A stretch of DNA of 64,000 bases from Streptomyces sp. B21-083 (GTDB taxonomy: Bacteria > Actinomycetota > Actinomycetes > Streptomycetales > Streptomycetaceae). The notes under the pieces are model-generated. The model worked only from the letters and a program-made list of their open reading frames with translations, did not search any database and was not told the origin of the DNA. The DNA lies in assembly GCF_036898825.1 (NCBI RefSeq), contig NZ_JARUND010000002.1:3472001-3536000 (forward strand), given 5' to 3'. Both the position numbers and the translations under genes were made by a program. Every line of letters begins with the position of its first letter. Position 1 is the stretch's first letter. Positions 36,910 through 40,323 of the stretch are shown here, in pieces.

Positions 36910-37125
36910 CTACAGCCCCGCGAGTTCCGACAGCGCCGGGACCGGACCCTCGTACAGCCCCGTGGGGTCCGCCTCCACGTCGGCGTGCTCGCTGGTCATC
37001 GCCTCCGCGTCGGCGAGCGGGGGCTCGCTGGTGAGGGGCTCGGCGGCGGGCAGCGGCGGCTCGCTGGTGAGCGGCGCCTCGGCGGCGGCGCTCTCGGCGC
37101 TGAAGACATGGGCCGGTACGGCCAC
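36910..37125 (-). CDS. 71-residue acidic repeat peptide coupled to malQ
   Basis: A small ORF with start GTG at 37125 and ideal AAGGAGG 5-6 nt upstream. The sequence contains two copies of PLTSEPPL and a related MTSEH, is rich in Glu, Ala and Pro, and has no cysteine or membrane helix, so it is probably disordered. It stops immediately before the malQ ATG. Function unknown: it may be an interaction tail, a translational coupler or a remnant. The strong RBS and exact abutment are the support for it being real. Confidence 0.55.
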   Translation of the reverse strand: MAVPAHVFSAESAAAEAPLTSEPPLPAAEPLTSEPPLADAEAMTSEHADVEADPTGLYEGPVPALSELAGL

Positions 37126-37331
37126 GGAGGCCTCCTTGTCGCGTACGACGGCTGACGGCGGTTGGCGGGTTTCATCCGCAGCCCTACCCAGTGGACGCGA
37201 CCGCAGACGTGTATGAAAGGACGAACCACGGTACCGCCGGTCACATTCCGCGATTCTTCCGTCGCCCTCCGGGCGAAGTCCGTCACATTCCCGCCACCAC
37301 CACACGATGTCCGGACGATGTCCCGGTAACT

Positions 37332-37369
37332 ATTCACTCAGTACATGTAGCGAGTGCATAATGATCGGC
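37332..37369 (+). promoter_or_regulatory. Promoter and overlapping PadR-type operator
   Basis: -35 TTCACT (37333-37338) and -10 CATAAT (37357-37362) are separated by 18 nt. Transcription would begin at the A of the padR ATG (37370), giving a leaderless message. A 28-bp inverted repeat (37332-37359), with perfect centre TACATGTA and ATnCACTC/GAGTGnAT arms, overlaps the promoter; ATGT/ACAT content is typical of PadR operators. Confidence 0.68.
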
Positions 37370-37903
37370 ATGAGCACCCGCCACATCCTTCTGGGGCTGC
37401 TCGCCGGGGGGCCCAGCCATGGCTACGACCTCAAGCGACGGCACGACGAACGCTTCCCGCAGGCCCGTCCGCTGGCCTACGGCCAGGTCTACACGACCCT
37501 GCAGCGCCTGGTGCGCGACGGGCTCGCGGAGGTCGACCGCACCGACGCGGACGGCGGTCCGGAGCGGACCAGCTACCGGGCGACCGATGACGGGGAGCGT
37601 GAACTCGCCGACTGGGTACGGCAGATCAGCGCACCCGCGCCGCACGTCACCAACGAGATCTTCGCCAAGGTCGTCGTCGCGATCCTGGCCGGCGCGGACC
37701 CGGCCGCGTATCTGCTGGACCAGCGTGCCGCGCACATGGCGCGGATGCGGGAGCTGACGGCGGTCAAGACCTCGCCGGCCTCGGACCTCTCGACCGTGCT
37801 CTCGGCGGACTACGCCCTCAACCACCTTGACGCCGACCTTCGTTGGATGACCACCACGGTGGCCCGGCTCACCACACTGACCGCGGAGGTCGAAACGGCA
37901 TGA
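37370..37903 (+). CDS. PadR-family transcriptional regulator
   Basis: A 177-residue regulator. The N-terminal winged helix (ILLGLLAGGPSHGYDLKRRHDERFP ... GQVYTTLQRLVRDGLAE) is classic PadR and the C-terminal helices form the dimer arm. It starts the operon that encodes an ABC exporter, and probably represses it until the exported compound binds. ATG at 37370 was chosen because the promoter predicts a leaderless start there and homology begins at once; ATG 37361 is possible. Its stop overlaps the ATPase start (ATGA). Confidence 0.88.
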   Translation: MSTRHILLGLLAGGPSHGYDLKRRHDERFPQARPLAYGQVYTTLQRLVRDGLAEVDRTDADGGPERTSYRATDDGERELADWVRQISAPAPHVTNEIFAKVVVAILAGADPAAYLLDQRAAHMARMRELTAVKTSPASDLSTVLSADYALNHLDADLRWMTTTVARLTTLTAEVETA

Positions 37904-38631
37904 CCACCACCCACGGGGAGACGTCCGACGGGCGAACGTCCGACGGGCCCCCTTCACCGGCGCTGATATCCGCCCACCGGCTGTCCAAGGCGCACGGCAG
38001 GACGCCCGCGCTGCGCGGCGCGTCGGTCGCGCTGCGGGCCGGCGAGATCCTGGCCGTCACAGGACCCAGCGGCAGCGGGAAGTCGACGCTGCTGCACTGC
38101 CTGGCGGGGATCGTCCGACCGGACACAGGCACCGTCGAGTACGCCGGGGAGCGGCTCGACACGCTGCCCGAGCGGAGGCTGAGCGAGCTGCGGCGCACCG
38201 AGTTCGGGGTCGTCTTCCAGTTCGGCCAGCTGATTCCCGAGCTGACCGTCATCGACAACGTGGCGCTGCCCCTGCTGCTCGCCGGGACCACGCGCGCGGC
38301 GGCGCACGAGCGGGCGGGCGAGTGGCTGGAACGGTTCGGGGTGCTCGGGCAACGGCTGCTCCGACCTGGCGAGCTGAGCGGGGGCCAGGCGCAGCGCGCC
38401 TCGCTGGCCCGCGCCCTGGTCACCGGCCCGAAGGTGGTCTTCGCCGACGAGCCGACCGGCGCGCTGGACTCTCTGGCGGGCGAACAGGTGATGGCGGCGC
38501 TGACACACACGGCCCGCGAGTCCGGCACGGCGGTCCTGCTGATCACGCACGACGCCCAGGTGGCGGCGTACGCGGACCGCGAACTGAGGCTCAGCGACGG
38601 CGCCGTGACCTCGATGGAGGTGACCTCATGA
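37900..38631 (+). CDS. ABC exporter ATP-binding protein
   Basis: A 243-residue ATPase of the MacB/LolD group. Walker A is GPSGSGKST, Q-loop VVFQFGQL, signature LSGGQAQRAS, Walker B VVFADEPTGALD and switch His in LLITHDAQVA. It pairs with an FtsX/MacB-like permease and is likely to export an antibiotic or lipid-like compound under PadR control. The final codons Glu-Val-Thr-Ser-stop are repeated at the ends of the two following mini-ORFs because they belong to a 164-bp tandem duplication. Confidence 0.9.
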   Translation: MTTTHGETSDGRTSDGPPSPALISAHRLSKAHGRTPALRGASVALRAGEILAVTGPSGSGKSTLLHCLAGIVRPDTGTVEYAGERLDTLPERRLSELRRTEFGVVFQFGQLIPELTVIDNVALPLLLAGTTRAAAHERAGEWLERFGVLGQRLLRPGELSGGQAQRASLARALVTGPKVVFADEPTGALDSLAGEQVMAALTHTARESGTAVLLITHDAQVAAYADRELRLSDGAVTSMEVTS

Positions 38632-38795
38632 CCGCCGACCAGGGCACCCTGCGAGCCGACCTGCACCTCGCCTGGCTGCTCACCCAGGGATCCGACCGGC
38701 GCGAATGGTGGCGGGTCGCACTCACGGCCGTCGGGGCGGCGCTCGCCACCGGGTTCACGCTGGCCGCCGCGGCCTCGACGGAGGTGACCTCATGA
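38628..38795 (+). CDS. Mini-ORF 1: truncated copy of permease N-terminus
   Basis: A 55-residue ORF made by the tandem duplication. It has the same first about 46 residues as the exporter permease (MTADQGTLRADLHLAWLLTQ ...) with the first membrane helix, then STEVTS and a stop that overlaps the next ATG. It has the same GGAGGTGACC ribosome-binding site as the intact gene. It is probably translated as a short single-helix membrane peptide, or it only relays ribosomes to the next unit. It could be scored as a pseudogene fragment. Confidence 0.7.
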   Translation: MTADQGTLRADLHLAWLLTQGSDRREWWRVALTAVGAALATGFTLAAAASTEVTS

Positions 38796-38959
38796 CCGCC
38801 GACCAGGGCACCCTGCGAGCCGACCTGCACCTCGCCTGGCTGCTCACCCAGGGATCCGACCGGCGCGAATGGTGGCGGGTCGCACTCACGGCCGTCGGGG
38901 CGGCGCTCGCCACCGGGTTCACGCTGGCCGCCGCGGCCTCGACGGAGGTGACCTCATGA
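38792..38959 (+). CDS. Mini-ORF 2: second truncated copy of permease N-terminus
   Basis: Identical in sequence to mini-ORF 1 (55 residues, one helix, STEVTS end). Its start overlaps the first stop (ATGA) and its stop overlaps the permease ATG at 38956. Because the 164-bp unit is not a multiple of three, the copies cannot fuse into one protein, but each keeps RBS and coupling. Confidence 0.7.
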   Translation: MTADQGTLRADLHLAWLLTQGSDRREWWRVALTAVGAALATGFTLAAAASTEVTS

Positions 38960-40323
38960 CCGCCGACCAGGGCACCCTGCGAGCCGACCTGCACCTCGCC
39001 TGGCTGCTCACCCAGGGATCCGACCGGCGCGAGTGGTGGCGGGTCGCACTCACGGCCGTCGGGGCGGCGCTCGCCACCGGGTTCGCGCTGGCCGCCGTGG
39101 CCGTCGCCTCGATACGCGGGCAGTACTACGTCTCGGTCGGCTCCGGGCTGCTGAACCAACAAGGGGAACGCTCGGGCGTGGTCCTCGCCCTCGTGCTGCT
39201 GCTCGTGCCCGTGCTCGGGTTCCTCGGGCAGTGTGCGCGGGTCGGAGCCGTCCACCGGGACCGGCGGCTCGCCGCGCTGCGACTGGCGGGGGCCGGGCCG
39301 GCGCGGGTGCGGCGGATCGCGGCGCTGGAGTCGGGGCTCGCCTGTCTGCTCGGCGCGATGCTCGCCACCGTGTGCTCCGCGCTGTTCCTGCTGGGCGTGT
39401 GGCATCAGCCGCCGGTGCTCGTCTGGTTCGGGATGGCGCTGGTCACGGCGGCCGTGCCGGTGCTGGGCGCGCTGGTGAGCGTCATGGCGCTGCGTCGCGT
39501 GGTCGCCTCGCCGCTGGGCCGGGTGCGGCGGGTGCCCCCGCGCGAGGGGCGCGGCCCGGGGATGCCCGTCCCGGCGGCGGCTCTGGGCCTGCTGGTCGTG
39601 GGGCTGCTGCTGGCCCCGGGCACGTTCGGCGGGTACGAGACCGCTCCCGTACAGGTGTTCTCCGTGGTGATCGTCACCGGGGTGTGCGCCCTCTGGCTGA
39701 CCGGCGCCACCGCCCGGTTCACGGGGCGGGTCCTCGCGGCCCGCACCGCCGACCCGGCGACGCTGATCGCGGCGGAACGGCTGCGCGACGACCCGTGGGC
39801 CGCCGCCCGCACCCATGCGGCGGTGCTGCTGGTGACCACCGTGGGCACCGGGTTCGTCGGCGTCCGGGAGGTGCTCCTCACCTCGCTCCGCGACCGCGGG
39901 GAGCACAAGTTGGCCTCGTCCCTGACCTTCTACACGACCGGCGTCGACCTGACCGGTGCCGCCGTGCTGGTCGCCCTGGTGATCACGCTCTGCGGGCTCG
40001 GCGTGGGCACCGCCGAGTCGGTGGCGGCCCGCCGCCGGGGGCTGGCCGCGCAGACCGCCGCCGGGGTGCCGCGCTCGGTGCTCGGCCGGGCCCTGCTCCT
40101 GGAGACGGCCCTGCCGCTCGCACCGGCGATGCTGCTGGCGGGCGCCGGGGGCCTGCTGATCGGCGTCCTGTTCGCCGGCATGGCCCAGGACGGCAGCCGC
40201 ACGGTGCCGTACACGGCGCTGCTGGTCCCGCCGGCGGTGTACGTGTCCTGCCTGCTCGCCGCCGCCACCTCACTGCCGTTGCTGGGCCGTTCGGTGCGTC
40301 CGGCGGAGCTCAGGTACGTCTGA
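38956..40323 (+). CDS. ABC exporter permease (FtsX/MacB-like)
   Basis: A 455-residue integral membrane protein with about ten helices in two halves, the partner of the upstream ATPase. Blocks such as RRLAALRLAGAGPARVRRIAALES and ARRRGLAAQTAAGVPRSVLGR resemble the coupling segments of FtsX-type permeases. The large extracellular domain of MacB is missing, as in peptide/antibiotic exporters of the BceB-like or short actinobacterial type. Its start region is the third unit of the 164-bp triplication. A terminator-like hairpin follows. Confidence 0.86.
   Translation: MTADQGTLRADLHLAWLLTQGSDRREWWRVALTAVGAALATGFALAAVAVASIRGQYYVSVGSGLLNQQGERSGVVLALVLLLVPVLGFLGQCARVGAVHRDRRLAALRLAGAGPARVRRIAALESGLACLLGAMLATVCSALFLLGVWHQPPVLVWFGMALVTAAVPVLGALVSVMALRRVVASPLGRVRRVPPREGRGPGMPVPAAALGLLVVGLLLAPGTFGGYETAPVQVFSVVIVTGVCALWLTGATARFTGRVLAARTADPATLIAAERLRDDPWAAARTHAAVLLVTTVGTGFVGVREVLLTSLRDRGEHKLASSLTFYTTGVDLTGAAVLVALVITLCGLGVGTAESVAARRRGLAAQTAAGVPRSVLGRALLLETALPLAPAMLLAGAGGLLIGVLFAGMAQDGSRTVPYTALLVPPAVYVSCLLAAATSLPLLGRSVRPAELRYV

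Follow-up and report, generated by a model that had tools for sequence, protein, structure and literature searches.

Tandem duplication across a four-base gene overlap as the probable origin of coupled mini-ORFs between an ATPase and a permease gene in Streptomyces sp. B21-083

In Streptomyces sp. B21-083, the joint between the ATPase gene and the permease gene of an ATP-binding cassette (ABC) exporter operon is present three times in tandem. We analysed this operon in a 64,000-bp stretch of DNA (contig NZ_JARUND010000002.1, positions 3,472,001 to 3,536,000; hereafter the window), and the positions below are those of the window, with all genes and features of the operon on the plus strand. The gene order is a PadR-type regulator, an ABC ATPase, two mini open reading frames (mini-ORFs 1 and 2) and an FtsX-type permease, and ATGA is found at every joint of the operon, including the PadR/ATPase joint. 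The PadR-family regulator gene lies at 37307..37903, given as the longest open reading frame although a later start is likely, with a PF03551 match in 37367-37900 (E 1.3e-15); its stop overlaps the start of the exporter ATPase gene (243 aa, 37900..38631; PF00005, E 9.6e-33). Among the best 25 of the 188 NCBIfam matches of the ATPase, the top ones were of the LolD/MacB/FtsE type, under their cut-offs. The permease (455 aa, 38956..40323) shows 10 hydrophobic peaks by hydropathy and matches PF02687 (E 1.1e-6, 29.1 bits, with a cut-off of 25.5).

Tandem Repeats Finder placed the repeat at 38601-39102 (period 164, 3.1 copies, 98% matches). Together with a direct comparison of the units, this bears out the 164-bp triplication at 38602..39102 that had been proposed in an initial reading of the DNA (hereafter the sequence-only reading). 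Unit 1 (38602..38765) contains the ATPase tail, the ATGA joint and the first 46 permease codons. Unit 2 (38766..38929) is identical to unit 1 apart from three differences within the first 14 bases (positions 5, 7 and 14), while unit 3 (38930..39093), which contains the real permease start, shows two differences from unit 2 (positions 104 and 156) and five from unit 1. The ATGA overlaps lie at 38628, 38792 and 38956, each with its own GGAGG ribosome-binding site (38616..38620, 38780..38784 and 38944..38948), and the Shine-Dalgarno (SD) sites and starts of all three joints have the same sequence over 30 bases. The reading frames likewise agree with the two coupled ORFs of 55 residues described earlier. 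Mini-ORF 1 (38628..38795, 55 codons) fuses the permease N-terminus in frame to the ATPase tail, and mini-ORF 2 (38792..38959) encodes an identical 55-residue peptide, for which no Pfam or NCBIfam match was obtained.

The array appears to be of local origin. The 164-bp unit matched the own genome at three places, all in this array, and the sole further match of the whole array was 33 bp long. In S. turgidiscabies Car8 (L032), the nearest named relative found via the permease search (91% protein identity; this search may not have covered all records of the own genome), the ATPase/permease joint is single-copy and both would-be borders carry CGCCGTGGCC, a stretch of 10 identical bases. A duplication over this shared stretch would therefore be the simplest origin of the array. 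The 9-bp microhomology noted at the borders in the sequence-only reading is imperfect in the window itself (GCCGTGACC/GCCGTGGCC), but the two borders are identical in the relative. Among seven relatives compared, position 156 was G in all seven and position 104 was G in six, with A in L035. Judged by these bases, unit 3 carries the older state, and A at both positions, as in units 1 and 2, is probably derived. Because units 1 and 2 share these derived bases, which are absent from unit 3 and from nearly all relatives compared, the second step would have copied the first mini unit, in agreement with the stepwise expansion that had been suggested. Over 147 bases, units 1 and 3 show three differences, including one within the junction. 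Without the junction, two differences in 144 bases remain, a divergence of 0.23 (0.03-0.82) times that between the permease genes of this strain and S. turgidiscabies (1284/1368 bases identical). Since units 1 and 3 have already diverged to this extent, the array is not brand-new, albeit with wide limits.

The sequence-only reading attributed the mini-ORFs to a unit length that is not a multiple of three. The length is indeed 2 mod 3, but this is a consequence rather than the cause. The mini-ORFs form because permease codons continue in frame into the ATPase tail at the junction, and a unit length of 2 mod 3, which 164 fits, follows from an in-frame crossover across the joint in combination with the 4-base gene overlap.

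Mini-ORFs at this joint are not confined to the window. We gathered 195 loci, including our own, of which 194 were usable (L052 lacks a permease start) and yielded 147 distinct joints, some of them from near-identical species. One of the searches scored only two candidates per genome and was used for finding loci, not for counting copies. A direct overlap was found at 129 joints, one mini-ORF at 8 and two mini-ORFs at 2, namely the window and S. albiflavescens (L038), whereas 8 were returned as gaps. Double-overlapped mini-ORFs thus occur at ten joints (L004, L006, L007, L020, L038, L053, L095, L098, L107 and the window), and the overlap is 4 bases in all 139 direct, one- and two-mini-ORF joints. 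By eye, seven of the eight gaps (L189, L193, L194, L206, L207, L210 and L211) are direct overlaps of 11 bases, and in the eighth (L188) the ATPase frame is broken beside an intact GTGA. With these seven judgements included, 146 of 147 joints show an overlap between the permease start and the stop of some upstream ORF, so that the overlap itself seems to be kept. SD-like motifs stand ahead of all 12 mini-ORF starts, of 9 of the 10 permease starts after mini-ORFs (L004 lacks it) and of 126 of 129 starts at direct joints. The codon-21 distance was at least 105 at 21 joints, which comprise 10 in-frame N-terminal extensions of the permease, 10 mini-ORF chains and L188. Evidently, the stretch before the first helix tolerates added sequence provided that the overlap is kept.

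The mini-ORF peptides differ between groups, although L007 resembles L107 and L020 resembles L053, and the two pairs have features in common with each other. The peptide from S. cyaneus gave four proteins in a search, including itself, and no Pfam domains. We had considered the window a unique case, because copies of the permease N-terminus were present in 119 of 120 loci of relatives but never more than once, and a second count (109 of 111 loci with a match) found more than one copy at our own locus only. This idea was rejected; such counting misses mini-ORFs of other sequence, which were later shown by frame-chain analysis. As a separate observation, the length of the permease N-terminus ahead of the first helix is highly variable. 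In S. griseorubiginosus, in-frame 36-bp repeats (L086:3795-4037) lengthen the permease N-terminus, and the in-frame extension of L073 is longer still.

An origin by duplication is visible not only in the window but also in S. albiflavescens, where a 110-bp array with 76% matches (L038:3652-4004) has ACG in one internal unit and ATG in the others, and in L098 and L095, where the ATPase tail was copied together with the joint (offsets of 104 and 74 bp). Moreover, a second joint in the genome of strain B21-083 has been duplicated. At L132:10724-10901 (G000:C1:3250001-3270000; C1 about 3,260,724-3,260,901), an 86-bp tandem duplication crosses the GTGA joint between a methyltransferase gene and the gene of a DedA/VTT-type membrane protein, genes that are unrelated to the ATPase/permease pair. 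Here too, the start of the downstream gene is fused to the end of the upstream gene, yielding a double-overlapped mini-ORF of 29 codons. The region was matched in 38 of 392 genomes, our own included, and among 19 loci examined from the 37 others, 16 have a plain overlap; of the rest, L314 is without one of the genes, L315 has no overlap and L318 is unreadable.

A survey of tandem arrays with a period of 40 or more in 101 pieces (2.064 Mb) of the own genome found 28 arrays. Nineteen are inside genes, 18 of them assigned by script and one (L229) flagged by the script as a joint but lying inside a gene. All 19 have units of 0 mod 3, which is in part built into the survey, as it demanded an uninterrupted coding-like frame. 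Both arrays on NTGA joints, the window (164 bp) and L132 (86 bp), are 2 mod 3. The remaining seven, placed by judgement between or mostly between genes (including L142, and L249, which overlaps an ORF end), are divided over 2 mod 3 (three), 1 mod 3 (three) and 0 mod 3 (one). Two further repeats were observed outside the joints. The own genome contains at L255:16135-16343 what looks by eye like a CRISPR array (61-bp period), and in the window 36-bp repeats (2.9 copies, 36981-37086) lie upstream of the operon, within a minus-strand ORF (36910-37305).

On a quick tree of 146 rows (L186 was too short), built without bootstrap, the mini-ORF trait required 8 changes, which may be gains or losses and at least 6 of which are forced by well-supported branches. 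Shuffled labels gave 9.8 changes, and 8 of 500 shuffles were as low as 8, so the trait is only weakly clustered. As a control we used the PadR/ATPase joint of the same operon, where 144 loci with PadR (L102 unreadable) contained a single mini-ORF, of 9 codons, at L209. The Fisher P value for the two joints is 0.010, and 0.019 without the window (9/146 versus 1/143), although it is a guide only, as the loci are related and not independent.

Our preferred explanation, which we consider probable on the evidence of the sequences, is that duplication across an overlapping joint creates relay cistrons through which the permease remains coupled to the ATPase, with an effect that is neutral or mildly dose-changing. 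A tandem duplication would have spanned the 4-base ATGA overlap of the ATPase and permease genes. Through it, about the first 46 permease codons would have become fused in frame to the ATPase tail, at a short stretch common to both borders such as that of S. turgidiscabies. The resulting mini-ORF would end on the copied ATPase stop and overlap the next start, and in a later step the unit would have been copied once more. A ribosome finishing the ATPase could then restart on mini-ORF 1, on mini-ORF 2 and finally on the permease, which would remain translationally coupled to the ATPase. We infer that the mini-ORFs are translated, that reinitiation passes from one joint to the next and that permease dose is either unaffected or mildly reduced. 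As for the encoded peptides, they are probably by-products. Their 19-residue hydropathy maximum is 1.79 in the window, compared with no more than 0.55 in the other 10 family members and in the L132 mini-ORF; hence, it is the overlap that recurs and not a helix peptide.

Several results weigh against this explanation. No duplication source was detected for the mini-ORFs of L004, L020, L053 and L107, and those of L006 and L007 have only weak matches as sources (equalled by 4 or 5 of 200 shuffles for L006 and by 1 of 200 for L007). Base-shuffled inserts keep the frame open in 47-69% of cases, or in 16-23% when the choice of frame is included, so that one double-coupled mini-ORF is not improbable by itself. 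Taken alone, the 2 mod 3 length of both joint arrays is weak support, because three of the seven between-gene arrays share it and any double-coupled mini-ORF necessarily has such a length. In 464 kb of the own genome, a loose scan returned 9 mini-ORF chains versus 12 direct joints, and a scan with other thresholds and no SD filter returned 14 chains, window included, versus 29 direct joints; many of these 14 are probably due to chance. Since loose scans give many chains, the overlap alone is weak evidence. When an SD motif was required at each start, the window was the only chain left, versus 10 direct joints. The L132 locus lacks an SD-like motif and was lost from this filtered scan, but we kept it because its duplication is visible. 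Finally, with SD sites present, the permease might be started with no need for a relay, and the three sites are predicted to be similarly accessible (mean unpaired 0.25-0.35).

In the strongest alternative, the array is a neutral by-product: the duplication was tolerated only because both genes remained intact, and the permease starts from its own strong SD site, without relay or regulation. The sameness of the three SD sites and starts fits this idea, as does the presence of derived bases in the mini units and older ones in unit 3, which is expected of unconstrained copies, and so does the variation of the peptides from group to group. Nevertheless, we consider it rather unlikely. Against it speak the overlap of nearly all permease starts with an upstream stop (146/147) and the persistence of an array whose units 1 and 3 already differ at 2 of 144 bases, and the four mini-ORFs of L007, L107, L020 and L053 look related, with their frame kept at different lengths. 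An assembly error is very improbable, since the copies differ at 5 positions, the array lies on a 4.8-Mb contig in an assembly of five contigs (10.5 Mb), and the architecture recurs in independent assemblies.

The sequence-only reading had offered functional explanations as well, and as a whole its interpretation is partly supported. Tuning of permease dose by the mini-ORFs is possible, as far as the sequence can tell. The suggested short helix peptides that bind the exporter appear improbable, also in the form of a 55-residue peptide that would enter the membrane with its single helix and inhibit or help the exporter, as small-protein regulators do. The peptide copies the first 46 codons of the permease and includes its first hydrophobic segment, but hydrophobicity is lacking in all 10 other mini-ORFs of the family, and the idea therefore has no support as a general explanation. 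In addition, its six protein matches are the window's own and five that look like N-terminal pieces of permeases, a word-based search found the full peptide in the own genome only, and of the two changes in the unit body it is the peptide-altering one that is derived. Least credible of all is a phase-variable on/off switch. Tandem repeats of this size can vary in copy number. However, each unit is a complete stop-start joint, so a change by whole units leaves both genes intact and cannot switch the permease off; with one, two, three or more units the permease frame is the same, and only the dose could change. Apart from these considerations, two short proteins (P0004 and P0006, on 9.6-9.8-Mb contigs) end soon after the first helix of the permease and are possibly broken or shortened permeases.

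If relay cistrons arise in the way that we prefer, a simple rule follows, open to testing in any genome: to preserve the coupling, a duplication that spans an overlap must be 2 mod 3. It also suggests how short coupled ORFs can arise harmlessly in operons. Such small genes are easily overlooked, as illustrated by the S. cyaneus mini-ORF, which is annotated only as a hypothetical protein. Naturally occurring versions of this joint with zero, one or two relays could serve to measure how efficiently ribosomes restart in succession. It is conceivable, though doubtful at present, that tandem duplication across 4-base overlaps is a general, frame-selected route to small relay genes in G+C-rich actinobacterial operons, where only units of 2 mod 3 would last because they keep the downstream gene coupled. 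An array of this kind could set the ratio of two subunits or give rise to new small genes by drift, and coupled repeats similar to the mycobacterial interspersed repetitive units (MIRUs) may have begun in this way.

MIRUs, which were reportedly described by Supply et al. in 1997, are the closest known system. According to passages of a 2025 review, they insert at start codons and their ORF thereby becomes coupled with -4 spacing (PMC12548453), and at some loci their copy number varies (PMC12548453, PMC2734929). The window mini-ORFs are likewise joined to the neighbouring gene by -4 spacing. In contrast, MIRUs as portrayed in such passages are scattered over many loci and appear mobile, whereas the window unit is a local copy of the flanking genes. 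The window array thus works like a MIRU but is none, because it is local rather than dispersed, with three tandem copies in one place. The variable repeats of Mycobacterium tuberculosis fpg1 also lie between two neighbouring genes, and longer upstream tandem repeats were linked to higher mRNA; yet they begin 40 bp after the rnc stop, and the part of that report available to us describes no chain of overlapped ORFs (PMC2734929). Switching on and off by copy number, the hallmark of phase-variable repeats, is absent from the window array, and small membrane-protein regulators of transporters have no counterpart here in a cross-species single-helix protein, as only the window mini-ORFs are hydrophobic. 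In the titles and abstract openings that we covered, with subscription journals outside our scope, we found no report in which coupled mini-ORFs arose through duplication of a joint. All joints of the window chain belong to the NTGA (-4) coupled gene pairs, for which the excerpts consulted give the -4 overlap as the commonest spacing (PMC12548453) and report that reinitiation at 4-base overlaps was put to the test (PMC6728339). Unlike in such pairs, the joint itself is multiplied in the window, resulting in a chain of three possible restarts. The review also mentions, in the passages seen, that short ORFs may bring ribosomes to the next gene (PMC12548453), and synthetic bicistronic designs, as outlined in parts of the respective reports, let a short first cistron run into an overlapping second one (PMC12548453, PMC10367133, PMC5995908). 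The arrangement in the window is the same, but it is a natural case that stands within an operon and is itself preceded by a coupled gene.
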